A stretch of DNA of 64,000 nucleotides from Bacteroidota bacterium. GTDB lineage: Bacteria > Bacteroidota > Ignavibacteria > Ignavibacteriales > Ignavibacteriaceae. Shown in pieces: positions 35,583-46,280 of the stretch. Where the stretch lies: the NCBI GenBank assembly GCA_021824145.1, contig JAKALM010000014.1, forward strand, positions 1 to 64,000, written 5' to 3'. Below the pieces are notes generated by a model that was not told where the DNA came from, searched no databases, and saw nothing but the letters and a program-made list of their open reading frames with translations. Made by a program: the position numbers and the translations under genes. Position 1 is the stretch's first letter, and each line of letters begins with the position of its first letter.

Positions 35583-35728
35583 AAATGTTTTGATTTTAGT
35601 CAATATTATTAAGATTTGTAAATAATTTTAAGATCACCACAAAAAAATTGACCGGCTGGTCTAAAATTTGTTGTTTTGGGACTATCGATTGGTTATTTTT
35701 GCACTGATAAGTCAATTAAGGAATTTAA

Positions 35729-36553
35729 ATGAAAGCGGTAATAGATTTTTCAAACTACATAATTCCATTTTTATATCTTCTTACATTCGGATTTTATTCT
35801 TACGATTTTATGAAGGGCGAGCAAAGGTTTGTAAATTCAAAACGGCTTTTTCTTTTTCTTACCTTAAGCTTTCATCTTTTTTATCTGATTATTCGTTCTA
35901 TTCATTTTGATCATCCGCCAATAACAAACGTATTTGAGATTTTTACATTACTTGCATTCTCGGTTAGCTTTTCATATTTCATCTTGGAACTTCTTACTGA
36001 TATTAGAGGCACGGGTCCTTTCATTATAATTTTTTCAATTATCTTTCAAATTATCTCAACTTTTTATATTTCGGATATATATCAAGTGAAAGAAGTTTTA
36101 CGAAGTCATTTGCTAGGCATTCATGTTTTTAATGCACTGCTTGGATATTCGGCAATTACAATTTCGGCAGTTTACGGATTTCTTTATTTAATTCTTTATA
36201 AAGATATTAAGCTTAATAAATTTGGATTAATTTTCGATCGCTTACCTAGCCTTGAAATTCTTGAGAAGATGAGTTTCTTTTCTGCAATTATCGGATTTTT
36301 TCTATTAACAATTGCAATTATAATAGGAATTATCTGGCTGCCTAAAGCTTTCCCTAATTTTTCCTACGCCGATCCCAAATTAATTGGAACTGCAATAGTT
36401 TGGATTCTTTACGGCATCGGAATTTCAACAAAACTTTTGGGTAAATGGCAAGGCAAAAAAGTTATTATGCTTTCAATTGTTGGATTTATTATCGCAATAT
36501 GCTCTACCATTGTTTCAAATTTTTTAGCAAGAAGTTTTCATTCATTTTATTAA
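35729..36553 (+). CDS. HemX/CcsA-like membrane protein, first gene of haem operon
   Basis: A 274-residue protein with about eight membrane spans, of the cytochrome c assembly (CcsA/CcmC/HemX) family. The conserved tryptophan-rich signature is poorly preserved (a single W-L-P near 220). HemX proteins lie beside hemA and modulate glutamyl-tRNA reductase levels, and the next gene here is hemA, 6 nt downstream. Haem handling or HemA control at the inner membrane is inferred from that context. The ORF begins at an ATG after the sequence TTAAGGAATTTAA, a usable ribosome site. Confidence 0.8.
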   Translation: MKAVIDFSNYIIPFLYLLTFGFYSYDFMKGEQRFVNSKRLFLFLTLSFHLFYLIIRSIHFDHPPITNVFEIFTLLAFSVSFSYFILELLTDIRGTGPFIIIFSIIFQIISTFYISDIYQVKEVLRSHLLGIHVFNALLGYSAITISAVYGFLYLILYKDIKLNKFGLIFDRLPSLEILEKMSFFSAIIGFFLLTIAIIIGIIWLPKAFPNFSYADPKLIGTAIVWILYGIGISTKLLGKWQGKKVIMLSIVGFIIAICSTIVSNFLARSFHSFY

Positions 36554-36559
36554 GATCTT

Positions 36560-37840
36560 ATGAATCTGTTTGCAACATCAATAAACCATAAAACAGCTTC
36601 TGTAGAACTTCGCGAAGCATTGTACCTGAATTCGGAAGAGATAAAAGAATATTTCAAGCTGGCACATGGTAAAATTTTCAGTGAAGGATTAGTTATTTCA
36701 ACTTGCAACCGAACTGAAATTTACGGCATTCCGGTTTCGAAAAATATTTCGCTTCAAGATATTCAAAACTCTCTCTTTCAGTTAAAATCAATATCTGGAT
36801 TAACAACAGAAAACTTCCAAAATTTTATTTCCGGAAACGCCATAAAACATTTGTTCAGTGTTGCATGTGGAATTGATTCACTGATGATTGGCGATAATCA
36901 AATATTTAAACAGGTTAAAGATTCATTTCAACTTGCAGAAGAAAATCATTACGCCGGATTTTTAATGAAGAGAGTTTTTGATTCAGCAATTAGAGCAGGC
37001 AAGCGCGCAATTACAGAAACAAGAATTAGTGAGGGTGCGGTAACAGTAAGTTACGCTGCTGTTCAATTGATTGAAAAAATATTTTCTAACTTGAGCCGTA
37101 AATCAGCACTTGTAATTGGTGCTGGAGAAACCGGCGAGCTTGCAGCAAAACATTTGAAAGAACGGGGAATCGGAAGCCTTACAATCACAAACCGAACTTA
37201 TGAGCGCGCAGAAAAGTTGGCGGAAAGTTTGAACGCAAAAATTCTTCCTTTCAACAACTTCAAAGAATCGCTGCATGAGTTTGATATAATTCTTAGTGCT
37301 ACTAGTGCTGAAAATTTGATTCTGACTAAGGACGACATAAAAATTTTGATGAAGAAAAGAAATTATAACCCTTGCGTACTGATGGATATTGCAATACCGC
37401 GCGATATTGACCCCGAAGCAAAAAGTATTGATTATGTTTTTTACAATGACATCGATTCGCTCAACATTATCGTTCAACAGAATCTTGCAAAACGTAAAGA
37501 AGAAATTCCTAAAGTTGAAAAGATAATTGATGAAGAACTTGCTGGATTTCTTTCATGGTTTAATTCTCTTGAAGCTGCACCGGCAATAAAAGATTTAAGA
37601 GATTTATTTGAATCTATAAGAGCAGAAGAGATTGAGAAAAATAAAAATAGATTTTCTCCGGAAGACCATGAGAAAATTGAAATTATTACAAAGAGAATAA
37701 TAAATAAAATTCTTCATCACCCTACGGTTGAGTTGAAAAAATTTGGAGAAAACGGAACTAACTCCGACGAAACAGCGCTGAAAATAAGCATTATTCGCGA
37801 ACTGTTTGGAGTTGACAAGAAAAACGAAAAGGAAAGTTAA
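36560..37840 (+). CDS. hemA: Glutamyl-tRNA reductase
   Basis: A 426-residue enzyme making glutamate-1-semialdehyde from Glu-tRNA, the first step of C5-pathway tetrapyrrole synthesis. The catalytic Cys49 sits in STCNRTEIYG. An NADPH-binding domain (G-A-G-E-T-G-E near 190) and the helical dimerisation domain follow. Length is normal. Glutamate-semialdehyde aminomutase (hemL) is not in this operon and must lie elsewhere. The gene is followed at once by hemC, whose TTG lies 2 nt beyond the stop. Confidence 0.96.
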   Translation: MNLFATSINHKTASVELREALYLNSEEIKEYFKLAHGKIFSEGLVISTCNRTEIYGIPVSKNISLQDIQNSLFQLKSISGLTTENFQNFISGNAIKHLFSVACGIDSLMIGDNQIFKQVKDSFQLAEENHYAGFLMKRVFDSAIRAGKRAITETRISEGAVTVSYAAVQLIEKIFSNLSRKSALVIGAGETGELAAKHLKERGIGSLTITNRTYERAEKLAESLNAKILPFNNFKESLHEFDIILSATSAENLILTKDDIKILMKKRNYNPCVLMDIAIPRDIDPEAKSIDYVFYNDIDSLNIIVQQNLAKRKEEIPKVEKIIDEELAGFLSWFNSLEAAPAIKDLRDLFESIRAEEIEKNKNRFSPEDHEKIEIITKRIINKILHHPTVELKKFGENGTNSDETALKISIIRELFGVDKKNEKES

Positions 37841-37841
37841 T

Positions 37842-38783
37842 TTGAAAAGAAAAATTGTTATTGGCTCTCGTGGAAGCGAACTTGCATTATGGCAGTCAAA
37901 TTTCATTAAGAAAGAACTCGAGAAAAAAAACAAAAGCATTTCTATTGAAATTAAAATTATAAAAACTACTGGTGACAAAATCCTTGATGTTGCGCTTTCG
38001 AAAATTGGCGACCGTAGTTTGTTCACCAAAGAGCTTGAAAGCGCCTTATTAAAAAAAGAAATTGATTTGGCTGTTCATAGTTTGAAAGATTTGCAGACCC
38101 AGCTTCCAAACGGATTGATTCTTGCTGCTGTTACCAAAAGGCATCCGGTTGAAGATGTTTTAATTTCAAAAAAGAAAGGAACTACTTTACAATCATTAAA
38201 AGAAAACGCTGTGGTTGCCACTGGCTCGCTGAGAAGAAAATGTCAGCTTCTTCACCTTCGCCCAGATATTAAAATTGAAGAGTTGCGCGGAAATGTTCCA
38301 ACGAGGATAAAAAGATTTCTGGAGTCTGATTGGGATGCAATTATTCTTGCACGCGCTGGAGTTGAAAGGCTAAAGATGCAAAAATATATTTCGTCTTTTA
38401 TCAGTACCGAAGAAATTCTTCCGGCAGTTGGCCAAGGCGCGCTTGGAATTGAAATAAATGAAGAGAATAAATTCGCTGAAGAAATTCTTTTCGAACTTCA
38501 TCATGAACCAACTTACAAAGCTGTTTTAGCCGAACGAGCTTTACTCAGGACTCTAGAAGGTGGTTGCCAAGTTCCAATTGGCGCATTTGCGGAAGTTAAA
38601 TCAAACGGGCTTTATCTCGATGCTATGGTTGGCTCTCTTGACGGCGCTTTAACTTTTCGCAAAAAAGTTAAAGGAACAAAAGCTGAACCTGAAAAGCTCG
38701 GTAAGAATCTTGCAAAAGATTTACTTAAAGCTGGCGCTAAAGAAATTCTTGCAGAAATTTATAAGACGACGAGATTAAAATAA
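37842..38783 (+). CDS. hemC: Hydroxymethylbilane synthase (porphobilinogen deaminase)
   Basis: A 313-residue enzyme polymerising four porphobilinogens. The N-terminus RKIVIGSRGSELALWQ and the dipyrromethane-cofactor Cys242 in EGGCQVPIGA are canonical. An in-frame upstream TTG at 37806 exists within hemA, but the TTG at 37842 follows GGAAAG at good spacing and matches the conserved start, so I use it. It is 2 nt after the hemA stop and 8 nt before the TetR-HemD fusion gene, so translation is coupled. Confidence 0.96.
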   Translation: MKRKIVIGSRGSELALWQSNFIKKELEKKNKSISIEIKIIKTTGDKILDVALSKIGDRSLFTKELESALLKKEIDLAVHSLKDLQTQLPNGLILAAVTKRHPVEDVLISKKKGTTLQSLKENAVVATGSLRRKCQLLHLRPDIKIEELRGNVPTRIKRFLESDWDAIILARAGVERLKMQKYISSFISTEEILPAVGQGALGIEINEENKFAEEILFELHHEPTYKAVLAERALLRTLEGGCQVPIGAFAEVKSNGLYLDAMVGSLDGALTFRKKVKGTKAEPEKLGKNLAKDLLKAGAKEILAEIYKTTRLK

Positions 38784-38791
38784 AATTTTTT

Positions 38792-40183
38792 ATGGAATCC
38801 GAAATTAAAATAGAGAATAAGAAAGAGCTGAAGCGGAAGAGAATAATTGAATCTGCAGCAAAGCTTTTTTCGCAAAAAAGCTACCACGAAGTTATGATGG
38901 AAGATGTTGCAAAGCTTTCGTTGATTGCTAAAGGAACGGTTTACAATTACTTCGAATCAAAAGAAGAATTATATTTTTCAATTATGAAGCAGCGTATGGA
39001 AAAACTTACGGCTTCACTTAAGGAAAAGATTAAAGATGAATTGAGCAGCATTGAATCGCTTCATTCTTTTGTAGTTCATCTTTATATGTTCATGATGAAA
39101 TATCAAAGTTTCTTTTTGATGTATCAGAAAGAATCCTTGAAAGCAGAGCACGAGCTTTGTTCTGAACTTGTAGGCTTGGAAAACGATTTGAAAAATATTT
39201 TGGAAGGAATTGTTGAGTCAGGTAAATCTGAAGGATTGTTTAGAAATATTGAAAGCGGCTTTGCAGTTGATCTAATTCTTGGCAGCATTTATGGCGCAAT
39301 TCAACGCGGTATTGAAAAAAATTTCGGCGAAGAGCGAATGGTTGCGGAACGTGAGAAAATTTTCGATTTTGTTCTGCATGGATTATTTTCGGCATACGAG
39401 GAAAACAAAATGTTTCCGTTAAGCGGCAAGACGATTGTAATTACACGGACTGTCGAGCAGTCAAAAGAATCTTCTGAAGTTTTCAGGCAGCTTGGCGCAA
39501 ATGTAATAATTTTTCCAACTCTTGATATTGTTCCGCCGGAAAGTTGGAATGAATTTGATTCAACAATTAAAGACAGTACTTCTATAAACTTCATAATTTT
39601 TACCTCGGCTCATGCTGTTAAAATGTTCATTCATAGGTGTAATGAACTTGGAGTAAATTTTGATTTCGGCCAGACAAAAGTTGTAGCAGTTGGAAACAAA
39701 ACAGCATTAGTCTGTGAAAGAAATAAAATACCTGTGCATATAATTCCCAAAAAGTTCAGCGGCGTTGGAGTTGTTGAAGAACTTACGAATTATGATCTGA
39801 AGAAGAAGCTGATTTTTATTCCACGTTCAGCAATTGGGCGTGAAGAGCTTCCCTATGAGCTCGAAGCTCTAGGTGCTAAAATTAAAACCGCACCAGTCTA
39901 TAATGTTTCACTTCCTTCTGACAACAAAGTAAAAGGTAATCTAGAAATTTTAAATCAAAGCAAACCAGATGTTTTCATTTTTACTAGTCCTTCAACTTTT
40001 GAAAATTTTATACAGATTTTGAAGATTGCCAATCCAGTGAAATATTTTGAAAACTATAAAGTAGCAGCAATTGGTCCAACAACAAGAACTGCAATTGAAA
40101 ATAGACATGTTCGTGTTGATATATTGCCGGAAGAATTTACGATTGATGGTTTGGCAAAAGCAATAATTGAATTTTATAAATAA
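38792..40183 (+). CDS. hemD: TetR-type regulator fused to uroporphyrinogen-III synthase
   Basis: A 463-residue single frame with two unrelated halves. Residues 12-200 are a complete TetR-family protein: the helix-turn-helix with M-E-D-V-A, A-K-G-T-V-Y-N-Y-F and K-E-E-L-Y-F, then a helical ligand/dimer domain. Residues 211-460 are a HemD domain starting SGKTIVITRT and including P-T-L-D-I-V-P, F-T-S-A-H-A-V and I-G-P-T-T-R-T-A-I. HemD closes hydroxymethylbilane to uroporphyrinogen III. The order hemC-hemD-hemE fits. A GAGGAAA site and ATG at 39410 lie exactly at the junction, so a free HemD may also be made. I know of no standard fusion of this kind; a frameshift is not needed to explain it. 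Confidence 0.9.
   Translation: MESEIKIENKKELKRKRIIESAAKLFSQKSYHEVMMEDVAKLSLIAKGTVYNYFESKEELYFSIMKQRMEKLTASLKEKIKDELSSIESLHSFVVHLYMFMMKYQSFFLMYQKESLKAEHELCSELVGLENDLKNILEGIVESGKSEGLFRNIESGFAVDLILGSIYGAIQRGIEKNFGEERMVAEREKIFDFVLHGLFSAYEENKMFPLSGKTIVITRTVEQSKESSEVFRQLGANVIIFPTLDIVPPESWNEFDSTIKDSTSINFIIFTSAHAVKMFIHRCNELGVNFDFGQTKVVAVGNKTALVCERNKIPVHIIPKKFSGVGVVEELTNYDLKKKLIFIPRSAIGREELPYELEALGAKIKTAPVYNVSLPSDNKVKGNLEILNQSKPDVFIFTSPSTFENFIQILKIANPVKYFENYKVAAIGPTTRTAIENRHVRVDILPEEFTIDGLAKAIIEFYK
39398..39412 (+). promoter_or_regulatory. Internal ribosome binding site and ATG at the TetR/HemD junction
   Basis: GAGGAAA is followed, 5 nt later, by an in-frame ATG (39410), residue 207 of the fusion and just before the conserved SGKTIVITRT. 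Initiation here would give a free HemD of 257 residues, the normal family length. Confidence 0.6.
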
Positions 40184-40237: not shown

Positions 40238-41302
40238 TTGAGCGAGTTAAAGAACGATTTATTTTTAAGAGCCTGCAAAAGGCTTCCGGTTGAGCGTACA
40301 CCAATTTGGATTATGCGCCAGGCAGGAAGATATTTGCCAGAGTATCGTGCAGTTCGGGAGAAAGCTGATTTTATAACGATGTGCCACACTCCGGAACTTG
40401 CCGCTGAAGTTACTATTCAACCGGTAAAAATTATTGGTGTTGATGCAGCAATTATTTTTTCGGATATCCTTGTTATTCCCGAGGCGATGGGAATGAAGTT
40501 CGATATGATTGAAAGCCGCGGTCCGGTTTTTCATCATCCCCTAAGAAACGAGGAAGATGGAAAACAGTTGAAGCGAATCGATCCTGGTAAAGATTTGAAA
40601 TACGTTCTCGATGCAATTTCACTTACAAAAAGAGAATTAAATGGAAGCGTACCGTTAATCGGTTTCAGCGGTTCTCCGTGGACGCTTTTTACTTACATGG
40701 TTGAAGGCAAAGGTTCAAAGAATTTTTCTTATATAAAAAAATTAATTTTTAATAATCCTAAACTTGCACACAAAGTTTTGGACCTGCTTTCTGATGCAGT
40801 TGCCGATTACCTTTCCGCCAAGATTGAAGCTGGTGTTAACGCTGTCCAGATTTTTGATACTTGGGGTGGAATTCTATCACAAAATGATTTTGAAGAATTT
40901 TCTCTCTACTACATATCGAAGGTTATTTCAAAAATTAAAAGAAATAATGAACCTATAATTGTCTTTTCTAAAGGAGTCCATTTTAAACTTGATAAAATTG
41001 CTGCTTCTGGTGCTGATGTAATCGGTCTTGACTGGACTATGGATCTCGGCGAAGCAAGAAAAAAGATCGGCGGTAAAGTTGCTCTTCAAGGAAATTTAGA
41101 TCCTACTGTTCTTTATGCAAAGCCTGATAAAATTAAAGAAGAAACAATAAAAATTTTAAACTCTTTTGGTGCAGGCAGTGGACACATTTTTAATTTAGGC
41201 CACGGAATTCTACCTGATGTAGATCCAGAAAACGCAAAATATCTGGTTCAGTTTGTGAAGGAAGAGAGCAAAGTCTTCCATAAAATAGACGCGAAGAAAT
41301 GA
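40238..41302 (+). CDS. hemE: Uroporphyrinogen decarboxylase
   Basis: A 354-residue enzyme converting uroporphyrinogen III to coproporphyrinogen III. The N-terminal signature R-T-P-I-W-I-M-R-Q-A-G-R-Y-L-P-E-Y-R, the Asp-bearing F-S-D-I-L-V-I-P and the G-F-S-G-S-P-W-T-L-F stretch are all present. The start is a TTG at 40238, the only candidate ahead of the conserved region. An AGAGAAAA purine tract precedes it. The 54-nt gap from the fusion gene contains no terminator. Confidence 0.95.
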   Translation: MSELKNDLFLRACKRLPVERTPIWIMRQAGRYLPEYRAVREKADFITMCHTPELAAEVTIQPVKIIGVDAAIIFSDILVIPEAMGMKFDMIESRGPVFHHPLRNEEDGKQLKRIDPGKDLKYVLDAISLTKRELNGSVPLIGFSGSPWTLFTYMVEGKGSKNFSYIKKLIFNNPKLAHKVLDLLSDAVADYLSAKIEAGVNAVQIFDTWGGILSQNDFEEFSLYYISKVISKIKRNNEPIIVFSKGVHFKLDKIAASGADVIGLDWTMDLGEARKKIGGKVALQGNLDPTVLYAKPDKIKEETIKILNSFGAGSGHIFNLGHGILPDVDPENAKYLVQFVKEESKVFHKIDAKK

Positions 41303-41314
41303 TAGGAGAAGAAT

Positions 41315-42691
41315 ATGTTTGAATTTGATTTAACGAAGTTCAAAAAATACGATAAACCAGGACCACGCTACACAAGCTATCCGACAGCTCCGCATTTTAG
41401 TGAGAGCTTTACACATGAGAATTATCTTGATGAAATATTAAAAACAAATTACGGCGAAGGTCTCCCTGATCTCTCGCTTTATTTTCATCTTCCATTCTGT
41501 GATACACTATGTTATTTCTGCGGCTGTAATATGATAATTACTCGTAACCGCGACCGTGTGAAAGATTACATCAAATATTTAAAAAAAGAAATTGACATGG
41601 TGCGCACATATATCCTTCCGGATAGAAAAGTTTCACAGCTTCACTGGGGTGGCGGAACACCAACACATCTTCATCCCGATGAAATTGATGAGCTTGCATC
41701 TTATATAAAAGAGTCTTTTCAATTTAAAGAAGATTCTGAAAACGGCTGCGAAATTGATCCGCGCGAATTATCGAGACGTCATCTAGAAATGCTTCGGAAG
41801 AACGGTTTCAACAGAATTAGTATGGGCGTACAGGATTTCAACGAAAAAGTACAGAAAGCAACAAACAGAATTCAACCTGAAGATATTACACGGCAAACTG
41901 TTCAGTGGGTGCGTGAGCTTGGTTTCAGCAGCATCAATCTTGATTTGATGTACGGGCTTCCATTTCAAACATTGGAAACTTTTTCGGAAACTTTAGACAA
42001 AACAATTGACATTTCGCCGGATAGAATTGCGGTCTTCAATTATGCTCATGTACCGTGGATGAAAAAACATATGTCGCTAATTCATACTGAAGATTTGCCC
42101 GCGGCAGAAGTTAAACTTCAAATTTTGAAAATGACGATAGAGAGATTGACAAACGCTGGTTATGTTTTCATAGGCATGGATCATTTTGCAAAACCAGACG
42201 ATGAACTTGCTATTGCATTGAATGAAAAAAAACTTTACAGAAATTTTCAAGGTTACAGTACACATTCGGGTACAGATTTGTATGCGATGGGGATTACAGC
42301 TATAAGTCAGCTTCAAAATGTCTATGCTCAAAACTACAAAACAGAAAAAGAATATTTTCAGACAATTGATAACGAAACAATTCCGGTTGCAAAGGGATAT
42401 CGATTAAACGAGGATGATATTTTACGCCGTGAAGTTGTAATGAAGTTGATGTGCAACTTCGAACTTGAATTTAAGCCAATTGAAGAAAAGTATAAAATTA
42501 ATTTCAACGAATATTTTGCTTGGGGTTTGAATAATTTAACCGAGATGGAAAAAGACGAACTCGTTACGATCGGAAAGGATAAAATTGAAGTTACTCCAAT
42601 GGGTAAACTTCTTATTCGTAACATCGCAATGAATTTTGATGGATACATTGAGCGGAAAGAAGACACAGCAAAATATTCAAGAACTGTATAA
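41315..42691 (+). CDS. hemN: Oxygen-independent coproporphyrinogen III oxidase (radical SAM)
   Basis: A 458-residue radical SAM enzyme. The Cys62-x3-Cys66-x2-Cys69-G-Cys71 motif is the HemN signature, with the extra fourth cysteine, distinguishing it from HemW. The N-terminal K-Y-D-K-P-G-P-R-Y-T-S-Y-P and the glycine-rich W-G-G-G-T-P stretch are also typical. It decarboxylates two propionates with SAM, anaerobically. AGGAG precedes the ATG. It lies in the haem operon between hemE and the protoporphyrinogen oxidase gene. Confidence 0.96.
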   Translation: MFEFDLTKFKKYDKPGPRYTSYPTAPHFSESFTHENYLDEILKTNYGEGLPDLSLYFHLPFCDTLCYFCGCNMIITRNRDRVKDYIKYLKKEIDMVRTYILPDRKVSQLHWGGGTPTHLHPDEIDELASYIKESFQFKEDSENGCEIDPRELSRRHLEMLRKNGFNRISMGVQDFNEKVQKATNRIQPEDITRQTVQWVRELGFSSINLDLMYGLPFQTLETFSETLDKTIDISPDRIAVFNYAHVPWMKKHMSLIHTEDLPAAEVKLQILKMTIERLTNAGYVFIGMDHFAKPDDELAIALNEKKLYRNFQGYSTHSGTDLYAMGITAISQLQNVYAQNYKTEKEYFQTIDNETIPVAKGYRLNEDDILRREVVMKLMCNFELEFKPIEEKYKINFNEYFAWGLNNLTEMEKDELVTIGKDKIEVTPMGKLLIRNIAMNFDGYIERKEDTAKYSRTV

Positions 42692-42707
42692 ATTTTTACA
42701 GAGAAGC

Positions 42708-44084
42708 ATGAACAAAAAGATTGTGATACTTGGGGCAGGAATTTCTGGTTTAACAACTGCTTATCTTTTAAATAAAAAAGGATATGATATAACTGTATTG
42801 GAAAAGAAAGATGAAGTTGGCGGCACGATGGAAAGCGTTTTCGAAAATGGTTACTTATTCGACCGAGGACCAAACAGCGGACTTGAAACAACACCGTTAA
42901 TAAGCCAGCTTGTTGAAGAGCTTGGACTTCAGAATGAAATTGTTTACGCAAACAAAATCGGAAATAAAAGATATATTCTTCGAGATAACCAACTTCATGC
43001 GATGCCAATGAGTCCGCCGGCATTTATCAAGACGAAACTTTTTTCCACCGGCGCAAAGCTAAGGTTGTTTGCCGAGCCAATTATTGGAAAATCTGATGAC
43101 GGATATTATCAAAGCATTGCTGATTTTGTTAAGAGAAGGCTTGGAAAAGAATTTTTAGATTATGCAATCAATCCTTTTGTTGCTGGAGTTTATGCCGGCA
43201 ATCCAGAAGAATTAAGTGTTAAGTCTGCCTTTCCGAAACTTTATGCGCTGGAAGAAAAGTACGGTGGGTTGATAGTTGGTTCTTTTAAAAGTATGAAGGA
43301 AAGAAGAAAACGTGCTGAAAAATCTAAGCAGAGTGCGCAGATGTTTTCTTTTTTAAATGGTATGCAAGTACTTCCTAAAGCTATTGCGAAAAATCTTGGC
43401 AAAAAGGTAATAAAATCTGCGGAAGTTAAATCCATTTCTAAAGAAATTAGCGGTTACAAAATTTCTTATTCGAAAAATGGAAAAGATGAAGATTTGATGT
43501 GTGATGTTTTGCTTTCTGCAATTCCCGCTTATTATGCTTCAGAATTGTTTAAATCGATAGATGAAAACTTATCAAAACATCTCGAACAGATTTATTATCC
43601 GCCGGTACTTGTTCTTTTGCTTGCTTATGAGAAAACCGCAATCAAGCAGCCGCTTGATGGATTTGGATTTTTAATTCCGGCAAAGGAAAAAAAATCTTTT
43701 CTTGGGGCAATCTGGAGTTCAATTTTATTTCCGAATCGTTCTGATGAAAGCAAAGCAATGTTCACAATATTTGTTGGCGGCGCCCGCAATCCAGAAATAG
43801 GAAACATCGACAAAGAAATTTTATTCAGAAAAGTTCGGAATGAGTTTGAAGAAATAATGGGAATTTCTAGCGAGCCAATTTTCACTTCATACCGATATTG
43901 GTCTAAATCAATTCCACAATACAACATCGGATATATTGAACACGAAAAATATTTTGAAGAATTTGAAAAAAGAAATCCCGGAATTATTATTGGTGGTAAT
44001 TATCGGGGGGGAATTTCTGTAGGTGATTGCATTAAGAATGCTGAACTGGTAAGCCAAAGAATTATTCAGCAAATTAACAATTGA
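42708..44084 (+). CDS. hemG: FAD-dependent protoporphyrinogen/coproporphyrinogen oxidase (HemY type)
   Basis: A 458-residue flavoprotein. The Rossmann motif is K-I-V-I-L-G-A-G-I-S-G-L, followed by V-L-E-K-K-D-E-V-G-G, and a C-terminal FAD-binding stretch, G-G-N-Y-R-G-G-I-S-V-G-D-C. This is the hemY/HemG(III) type, usually oxygen-linked, and can act on protoporphyrinogen IX or coproporphyrinogen III. An ORF extension begins inside hemN, but the ATG at 42708, 16 nt after the hemN stop and following the GAGAAG site, matches the family start. No ferrochelatase gene follows; hemB does. Confidence 0.92.
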   Translation: MNKKIVILGAGISGLTTAYLLNKKGYDITVLEKKDEVGGTMESVFENGYLFDRGPNSGLETTPLISQLVEELGLQNEIVYANKIGNKRYILRDNQLHAMPMSPPAFIKTKLFSTGAKLRLFAEPIIGKSDDGYYQSIADFVKRRLGKEFLDYAINPFVAGVYAGNPEELSVKSAFPKLYALEEKYGGLIVGSFKSMKERRKRAEKSKQSAQMFSFLNGMQVLPKAIAKNLGKKVIKSAEVKSISKEISGYKISYSKNGKDEDLMCDVLLSAIPAYYASELFKSIDENLSKHLEQIYYPPVLVLLLAYEKTAIKQPLDGFGFLIPAKEKKSFLGAIWSSILFPNRSDESKAMFTIFVGGARNPEIGNIDKEILFRKVRNEFEEIMGISSEPIFTSYRYWSKSIPQYNIGYIEHEKYFEEFEKRNPGIIIGGNYRGGISVGDCIKNAELVSQRIIQQINN

Positions 44085-45507: not shown

Positions 45508-45647
45508 ATATTCTAATATACCAATCATTATTGACTGTCCAGTCAAATATTAAATATTTATCATTCCTTTAATAACAGCCAATTACTGAATTATCCAAGG
45601 ATAATATTGATTTTTATCACCAATAATAGATGTAATTGCGAATGTTG

Positions 45648-45716: not shown

Positions 45717-46280
45717 ATGGATTCTCAATCAAAAGTTTCGACAAATGTTGCTCAGAAAGAAGCATGGAGTTTAGACAAAGCTCATTCAAAAATTCAGTTC
45801 TCTGCAAGACACTTGATAATTTCAGAAGTTGCGGGGCATTTCAATAATTTCGATATAAATTTTTCTTCCACAGACGATTTGACTGAAAGCGAAATTGAAG
45901 CATCAATAGATGTAAAAAGCATTGATACTGGAATTTCTGACCGAGACAACCACTTAAGAAGCGCTGACTTCTTTGATGCGGAAAAGTTTCCACAAATTAA
46001 ATTTAAAAGCACCAAAATAGAGAAGGTTAATGATGAAAAATATAAACTCTTTGGTGAGCTTACAATTAAAAACATTACCAAACCTTTTGAGTTTGATGTT
46101 TTCTACGGAGGTCAAATAAAAGATCCTTGGGGATTGCAAAGATCCGGTTTTAAAGCGACCTCTAGTTTAAACCGCTTTGATTATGATTTGAAATGGAATG
46201 CCTTAATGGAAACCGGCGGTGCTGTTGTTGGAAAGAATATTAATATTACAATTGATGCTGAGTTTACAAAACAAGGGTAA
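45717..46280 (+). CDS. YceI-family lipid-binding-like protein
   Basis: A 187-residue protein of the YceI family, beta-barrel lipocalin-like folds that bind isoprenoid or fatty amphiphiles. The core W-S-L-D-K-A-H-S-K-I-Q-F-S-A-R-H-L and L-R-S-A-D-F-F-D-A-E-K-F-P are diagnostic. Most YceI proteins are secreted; I see no signal peptide in the first 20 residues, so this copy is predicted cytoplasmic. It heads a likely operon with pirin and MarR genes and has a near-consensus promoter and GGAGG site. Confidence 0.92.
   Translation: MDSQSKVSTNVAQKEAWSLDKAHSKIQFSARHLIISEVAGHFNNFDINFSSTDDLTESEIEASIDVKSIDTGISDRDNHLRSADFFDAEKFPQIKFKSTKIEKVNDEKYKLFGELTIKNITKPFEFDVFYGGQIKDPWGLQRSGFKATSSLNRFDYDLKWNALMETGGAVVGKNINITIDAEFTKQG

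Follow-up and report, generated by a model that had tools for sequence, protein, structure and literature searches.

PutA, BirA and NadR are proteins in which one chain both catalyses a reaction and regulates the genes of its own pathway. The TetR-family haem sensors HrtR, HatR and FhtR are stand-alone proteins. They are described as repressing haem efflux systems, and not haem synthesis. Uroporphyrinogen-III synthase (HemD) has been found joined to a DNA-binding domain in NnaR of the actinobacteria, examples of which are Rv0260c and SCO2958. Here an N-terminal HemD is followed by a C-terminal winged helix of the OmpR/PhoB type, in a protein that regulates nitrate/nitrite genes. The HemD of NnaR is reported to be inactive in S. 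coelicolor and the role of the domain is described as unclear; M. smegmatis has a HemD that is separate from NnaR. Fusions of HemC and of CobA with HemD are also described, and HemD–HemX is the name of an NCBIfam model found among the profile matches of the protein studied here. In these the in-frame partner is a pathway enzyme or a membrane protein, and not a DNA-binding domain.

We have analyzed a protein in which HemD is joined to a TetR-type regulator. The window is the whole stretch of 64,000 nucleotides of contig JAKALM010000014.1 that was studied, from a member of the Ignavibacteriaceae (genome G000). At 38,792..40,183 on the + strand it carries a gene of 463 codons with an ATG start, encoding a 463 amino acid protein in a single frame without internal stop. 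The first-pass annotation knew of no described protein of this architecture. In its narrow form the statement stands, as searches of open-licence PMC papers turned up nothing on TetR fused to HemD. In a broader form it does not, since accounts of NnaR describe a fusion of HemD with a DNA-binding domain, albeit an unrelated one at the other end.

The fusion resembles NnaR in that a HEM4 domain is covalently joined to a DNA-binding domain in a transcription factor, a function demonstrated for NnaR and predicted for the fusion. The two proteins differ in the order of their parts, with TetR N-terminal and HemD C-terminal in the fusion (HEM4 at residues 227–455 of 463). They differ also in the nature of the DNA-binding part, which in the fusion is the N-terminal TetR domain, with no C-terminal Pfam match of the OmpR type, and in setting, in that the fusion lies in a haem operon and is usually the sole detected HemD. 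The NCBIfam model PRK07239, which we take to be the NnaR model, matches the fusion far below its cut-off. The fusion is not a member of the NnaR family, as it lacks the three NnaR features tested; it may work like NnaR in outline. With HrtR, HatR and FhtR it shares the TetR family and putative haem-related targets. PutA, BirA and NadR have other folds, pathways and DNA-binding domains; the fusion, which has both domains together with matching putative sites, may be of the PutA/BirA kind.

Results

The fusion is encoded in one frame

The genomes of the order that were compared numbered 164, comprising 80 of family f1, 79 of f2 and 5 of f3. The first-pass annotation had proposed a search for TetR plus HemD proteins in related genomes, and both whole halves were indeed matched in 42 of the 80 f1 genomes. 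One of these, G317, has an in-frame TAA inside the TetR half and was left out of the set of fetched fusion loci used below, which comprises 44 loci from 40 f1 and 4 f3 genomes. Further f1 fusions are cut off at contig ends (e.g., G320, G329, G309 and G310).

Both halves lie in one stop-free frame at all 44 fusion loci, and the missed stop or frameshift between residues 200 and 210 that had been named as a possible refutation was not found. Because the loci share this in-frame read-through, assembly error is ruled out, and with an identical junction at every locus there is essentially no chance that an artefact of assembly or gene calling has joined two genes.

An AlphaFold2 model based on 21 aligned fusions shows both halves folded, with a mean pLDDT of 86.6 and values below 50 at residues 2–4 and 201–205. 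Helices extend from residue 2 to 199, followed by a hinge at 201–205 and the two-lobed HemD from residue 214 onward. The pTM of 0.51 means that the relative placement of the TetR and HemD halves is not fixed by the model. The hinge region (residues 201–208; 39,392..39,415, + strand) is partly of pLDDT < 50 and contains an internal ATG at codon 207 after the sequence GAGGA. Together these elements (39,398–39,415) provide a candidate start for HemD alone, from which a separate HemD product could be made in the window. ATG is present at this position in four of the 44 loci (the window and three close relatives) and one codon earlier in three more, all from g9; some other fusion loci have GTG or TTG nearby, so that a second product may be made there too. 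Dual translation from codon 207 was rejected as a general feature.

Both halves are complete domains

A complete TetR-type DNA-binding and ligand domain and a complete HemD had been recognized in the first reading of the open frame. This is borne out by Pfam matches above the cut-off for each part, and by the folding of both halves in the model.

The TetR half (38,792..39,391, + strand) consists of a helix-turn-helix (HTH) at residues ~18–62 and a helical ligand/dimer domain extending to ~199. TetR_N matches residues 18–62 (E = 9.9e-13, 48.1 bits against a cut-off of 24) and TetR_C_24 matches residues 84–166 (E = 2.8e-6, 28.0 bits against 26.4). The N-terminal three-helix HTH of the TetR family is thus found both by profile and as helices in the model, and the all-helical C-terminal domain both by TetR_C_24 and by comparison with FadR in Foldseek (TMt ~0.8). 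Foldseek matched the fusion to structures of uroporphyrinogen-III synthase and of B. subtilis FadR. Among TetR families, Bacillus FadR comes closest; it is among the best solved structures, with a likeness in fold and sequence (20–22% in Foldseek alignments), although the score with the NCBIfam Bacillus FadR model (NF053878) is 76.5 bits against a cut-off of 200. This kinship suggests an acyl-CoA-like ligand. FadR itself, in contrast to the fusion, is a stand-alone protein that controls fatty-acid genes.

Cysteine C123 in the ligand domain is retained in 40 of the 44 fusions, and this residue may point to a signal of the haem or redox type. It is absent in three g9 genomes, which have also lost H96 and have some of the most diverged TetR halves, and in G301, which still has the sites before lpd and ccsB described below. 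Among the matches listed for the 164 genomes of the order, no stand-alone protein matching most of the TetR half exceeds ~31% identity, and stand-alone matches to the HTH only reach ~40%. The genome of the window has four weak matches to other TetR-like genes.

The HemD half (39,416..40,180, + strand) is defined by the HEM4 profile, the model and invariant residues. The HEM4 match (E = 2.7e-50, 171.1 bits) spans profile positions 3–230 of 231, and is thus the whole-length match expected of a uroporphyrinogen-III synthase. The equivalog HemD models of NCBIfam, which are narrow and lineage-specific, give at best 124 bits against 275. T304, Y370, S399, S401 and T431 are invariant in 44/44 fused and 17/17 stand-alone HemDs. 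In an alignment of marginal significance (E = 0.0034), T304, Y370, S399/S401 and T431 correspond to T103, Y168, the S197 region and T228 of human UROS; T103, Y168, S197 and T228 are presumably the residues implicated in UROS function. The fusion is the sole HEM4 match in 36 of the 40 f1 fusion genomes, that of the window among them; a second match occurs in G299, G326 and G353, and in G314 below the cut-off.

Both halves appear to be under constraint. For the TetR half dN/dS is 0.02–0.15, as estimated from 13 of 19 pairs, and for the HemD half it is 0.04–0.32, from 17 of 19; both are rough, as dS is mostly >1. The highest HemD value (0.32) is that of the g10 pair G263 and G346, the other pairs being low. 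Within the TetR half, 17 of 19 pairs have a lower dN in the HTH than in the ligand domain. Since the fused HemD is mostly the sole HEM4 match, retains the invariant residues and has low dN/dS, it is likely to be catalytic.

The HemD halves of four loci (L126 and L127 of g10, L128 of G359 and L129 of G351) have 35–41% identity to that of the window, where their TetR halves have 45–55%; fast evolution or replacement of these HemD halves would give this pattern. Tandem HEM4 domains (HemD–HemD) are present in one frame of 568–576 amino acids at L140 (G357) and on G358:C99. A HEM4 match is absent from 12 of the 80 f1 genomes, several of them incomplete (e.g., G132 and G334, each a single contig, and G331, G363, G364 and G349).

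The fusion lies within a conserved haem operon

All genes of the operon in the window lie on the + strand. The first, a ccsB-like cytochrome c assembly gene (35,729..36,553), scores 119.5 bits with the CcsB model, below the cut-off of 187.6. Profile matches identify the remainder as hemA, glutamyl-tRNA reductase (36,560..37,840); hemC, hydroxymethylbilane synthase (37,806..38,783, the TTG start being as called mechanically); and, after the fusion, hemE, uroporphyrinogen decarboxylase (40,238..41,302), hemN, oxygen-independent coproporphyrinogen III oxidase (41,315..42,691), and protoporphyrinogen oxidase (42,636..44,084). The order ccsB, hemA, hemC, fusion, hemE, hemN holds for the genes found at 44/44 fusion loci. 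All six are present at 36, the remainder being mostly cut at contig ends. At 17 non-fusion loci HemD precedes hemE in 16 and follows hemC in 14.

The gap between hemC and the fusion exceeds 500 nt in 25 of 43 fusion loci. We considered this gap as the home of a stand-alone TetR ancestor, and rejected the idea because the open reading frames observed in it are lipoprotein-like and not TetR (PepSY below cut-off). Many loci (e.g., L093 and L135), whether they carry the fusion or not, have a lipoprotein-like gene of ~200 amino acids downstream of hemC and ahead of the fusion or HemD; it is absent from the window. The immediate upstream neighbour of ccsB in several genera is a Band-7 (prohibitin-like) gene (L123–L125, L217 and L223, with a Band_7 match in L223). 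In G298, ccsB and a truncated hemA are distant from the fusion and a truncated hemC, reflecting a break or misassembly.

Palindromes flank the promoter of the operon

The region upstream of position 35,729 had been singled out by the first-pass annotation as the place where the fusion might bind, and an operator-like palindrome is found there that is associated with the fusion across genomes. Regulators of the TetR family bind palindromic operators, often at their own operon. The putative operator O1 (35,649..35,662, assigned to neither strand) has the sequence TGACCGGCTGGTCT, with one mismatch in the eight fixed bases of TGAC-N6-GTCA, and lies 80 nt before ccsB. A weaker putative copy, O2 (35,701..35,714, likewise without strand), has the sequence GCACTGATAAGTCA, with two mismatches, 52 bp from O1. 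Between them is a promoter (35,670..35,701, + strand) comprising GTTG (–33), 20 nt and TATTTTTG (–7), a form that we take to be of the Bacteroidota type. O2 in the window overlaps the last base of the –7 element.

Of 36 fusion genomes, 30 carry TGAC-N6-GTCA with at most one mismatch in the 260 nt before ccsB, counted from its BLAST-defined start, whereas all 11 fusion-less genomes lack it; the exact sequence is found in 20/36 and 0/11, respectively. The expectation from base-shuffled sequences for the 36 fusion promoters is 2.1 with at most one mismatch and 0.0 exact. Eight of the 44 fusion loci and six of the 17 non-fusion loci, which have no usable upstream sequence, were excluded from this comparison. 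Among 3,840 dyads (256 four-base dyads with gaps of 0–14) TGAC-N6-GTCA ranks first (20/36 against 0/11). Its own core, GACC-N4-GGTC, comes second with 13, and no unrelated dyad exceeds 9/36. In the 422 kb of the 44 fusion loci there are 23 exact occurrences, 20 of them 30–144 nt before ccsB, and in the 144 kb of the non-fusion loci there is one.

The position of the site is conserved. In 15 of the 36 fusion promoters 7–8 nt separate the end of O1 from a TTG, which is followed 20 nt later by TAnnTTTG, and in 20 the best O2 overlaps the end of the –7 element, the scripted search placing this element wrongly in several promoters. In 19/36, O1 and O2 are 49–53 bp (roughly five turns) apart, and 17 of these have an O2 with no more than two mismatches. 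GTCA occurs within the last 50 nt in 25 of the 36, and in none of the 11 others.

A site with at most one mismatch is missing from six of the 36 fusion genomes. By eye, the three g11 promoters have no O1, and an O2-like half-site right after TATTTTTG. The three g9 promoters have neither O1 nor O2, ccsB lying directly after a Band-7 gene; g9, with its diverged TetR half that has lost C123, lacks the sites before the haem operon and lpd alike. As genomes with the fusion mostly have a matching site before their haem genes, control of its own operon by the fusion is probable.

A second site precedes lpd in part of one family

The gene for dihydrolipoyl dehydrogenase, lpd (TIGR01350, 566.9 bits against a cut-off of 408.8), could be tested in 33 f1 fusion genomes, the others having no listed full orthologue or upstream sequence. 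A site with at most one mismatch was present in 28, all at –95 to –119 and 26 of them exact, against a shuffled expectation of 1.4. It was found in one of 18 f1 genomes without the fusion, with one mismatch and at –21, and in two of seven genomes without a detected HemD, both from genera that have the fusion. In G132 and G334, the single-contig genomes with no HEM4 match, it looks decayed by eye. No site was found within 260 nt of lpd in four f3 fusion genomes, in four f2 genomes or in the fusion-less f3 genome G431. Overall the site is present in 28 of 37 fusion genomes, and missing in those of g9 (three), g10 (two) and f3 (four). Because it is absent from the f3 and f2 genomes examined, lpd was probably recruited as a target within f1. 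Activation at lpd is possible, since the site is well upstream of TATATTTG and no companion to it was seen. In the genome of the window (L231) the site, at G000:C1:49733, lies between lpd and a divergent gene that we take to be MerR-like, with what is presumably a multi-haem cytochrome-like gene behind. At G306:C295 (L234) lpd is followed by a gene of the lipoate-ligase/LipB type.

Other candidate targets were examined. An exact site, TGACTGTCCAGTCA (45,532..45,545, no strand assigned), lies 185 nt before a YceI-domain gene (45,717–46,280) in the window, and is a weak candidate. Such a site is found in four of 20 fusion genomes, all of g1 (the window, G312 and G307, with G315 having one mismatch), and in 0/10 others, so that this gene is possibly a further, genus-level target, if a weak one. 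A site with at most one mismatch before ccmB occurs in seven of 35 fusion genomes (expected 2.35), in genus g1 only, in 0/16 genomes without the fusion (expected 1.5) and in 0/7 without a detected HemD; the set of 35 includes some fusions truncated at a contig end. This would make ccmB at best a weak, lineage-specific target. Twelve stretches that were too short were dropped from this comparison (six fusion, five non-fusion and one without HemD). Sites inside YbaB-family genes fall on the codons of a conserved stretch of IDPQVI type, and were dismissed as a coding coincidence. We also rejected a wide regulon: exact TGACYN4RGTCA occurs four times in the genome of the window compared with nine for the reversed control, and 15 of 20 further sites from fusion genomes fall inside open reading frames as called.

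Distribution and history of the fusion

Of the five f3 genomes, four have matches to the TetR half of the grade seen in the fusion; the 79 f2 genomes have none. In a sample of 296 genomes of the phylum, full-length matches among those listed are confined to f1 and f3. On a tree of five neighbouring proteins, calculated without one non-fusion locus, the fusion label needs eight changes, and the fusion-less G148, G344 and G337 lie beside carriers. One old fusion followed by repeated loss of the TetR half fits these data, and the label count is itself blind to gain versus loss. In the HemD tree some of the divergent fused HemDs are dispersed. A single clade of all 44 is not rejected (p-AU = 0.33), and as it stays acceptable we have set aside independent origins of the fusion.

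Phylogenetically independent pairs gave three concordant, none discordant and two without difference for the site before the haem operon (p = 0.25), and two, none and three, respectively, for that before lpd (p = 0.5). The direction is uniform, and the pairs are too few for significance. The raw contrasts between genomes with and without the fusion are therefore inflated by kinship; sturdier evidence is the constant position of the site where promoters otherwise diverge.

Discussion

The conclusion that emerges, drawn from comparative sequence analysis, is that the fusion is probably a bifunctional haem enzyme, an active HemD that is also the TetR repressor of its own operon. The HemD half would close hydroxymethylbilane to uroporphyrinogen III. 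The TetR half would dimerize and bind the TGAC-N6-GTCA palindromes that flank the operon promoter, and with O1 just upstream of –33 and O2 over the –7 end, the operon encoding the fusion would be repressed. Two dimers flanking and overlapping the promoter are what a repressor would need. Because enzyme and repressor would be one chain, every HemD made would add one repressor. Release from DNA might follow occupancy of the FadR-like pocket with its conserved C123, or alternatively occupancy of the HemD cleft, passed through the short hinge; lpd would have been gained as an extra target in part of f1. The first-pass annotation had raised the possibility that the fusion senses its own flux. A fuller version, which we put forward tentatively and with some doubt, has the HemD substrate or product, or a haem or redox signal at C123, reported to the TetR half. 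The protein would then be a one-protein haem homeostat, with the dose of repressor equal to that of HemD, that acts on the haem operon and also on lpd in part of one family.

The signal could also be sought outside the pathway. A FadR-type ligand, acyl-CoA or similar, would tie haem supply to carbon or respiratory state instead of to pathway flux. This is a serious possibility, if short of an even chance: the kinship of the TetR half with Bacillus FadR (below the NCBIfam cut-off, though among the best solved structures) and the nature of lpd as the second conserved target both favour it, whereas lpd is no target in f3 or g10, where the sites before the haem operon persist, and the conservation of C123 and H96 may indicate another chemistry.

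It is less easy to sustain the proposal that the fusion is a structural or co-translational tie, with the TetR half as a relic or folding partner and a stand-alone TetR regulator acting at the palindromes. FadR-type regulators do use palindromes of similar core; the operator of Thermus FadR is a palindrome with an ACY…RGT core (TTRNACYNRGTNYAA), with a different spacing of half-sites. The window's genome does have its four weak TetR-like matches, and a separate regulator sharing the palindrome motif is possible. Yet the HTH is more conserved than the ligand domain, the sites go with the fusion at two loci and are missing in g9 where the TetR half is most diverged, and the order contains, among the matches listed, no close stand-alone counterpart; we consider this proposal unlikely. 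More improbable still is that HemD is a dead sensor domain, as in NnaR, in a protein that is purely a transcription factor. Most f1 fusion genomes have no HEM4 match other than the fused HemD, which is encoded between hemC and hemE, retains the residues aligned with those of human UROS and shows a low dN/dS in most pairs. Such a reading could apply to the fast-diverging proteins of g10, G351 and G359.

To our knowledge, the control of haem synthesis in little-cultured phyla is poorly known, and the TetR–HemD fusion gives such a lineage a concrete and testable candidate regulator together with its putative operators. It is also a second, differently built fusion of HemD with a DNA-binding domain besides NnaR. 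The combination of HemD with DNA-binding domains in two unrelated arrangements suggests that sensing at the hydroxymethylbilane/uroporphyrinogen step is useful, and this would bear on the role of the HemD domain of NnaR.
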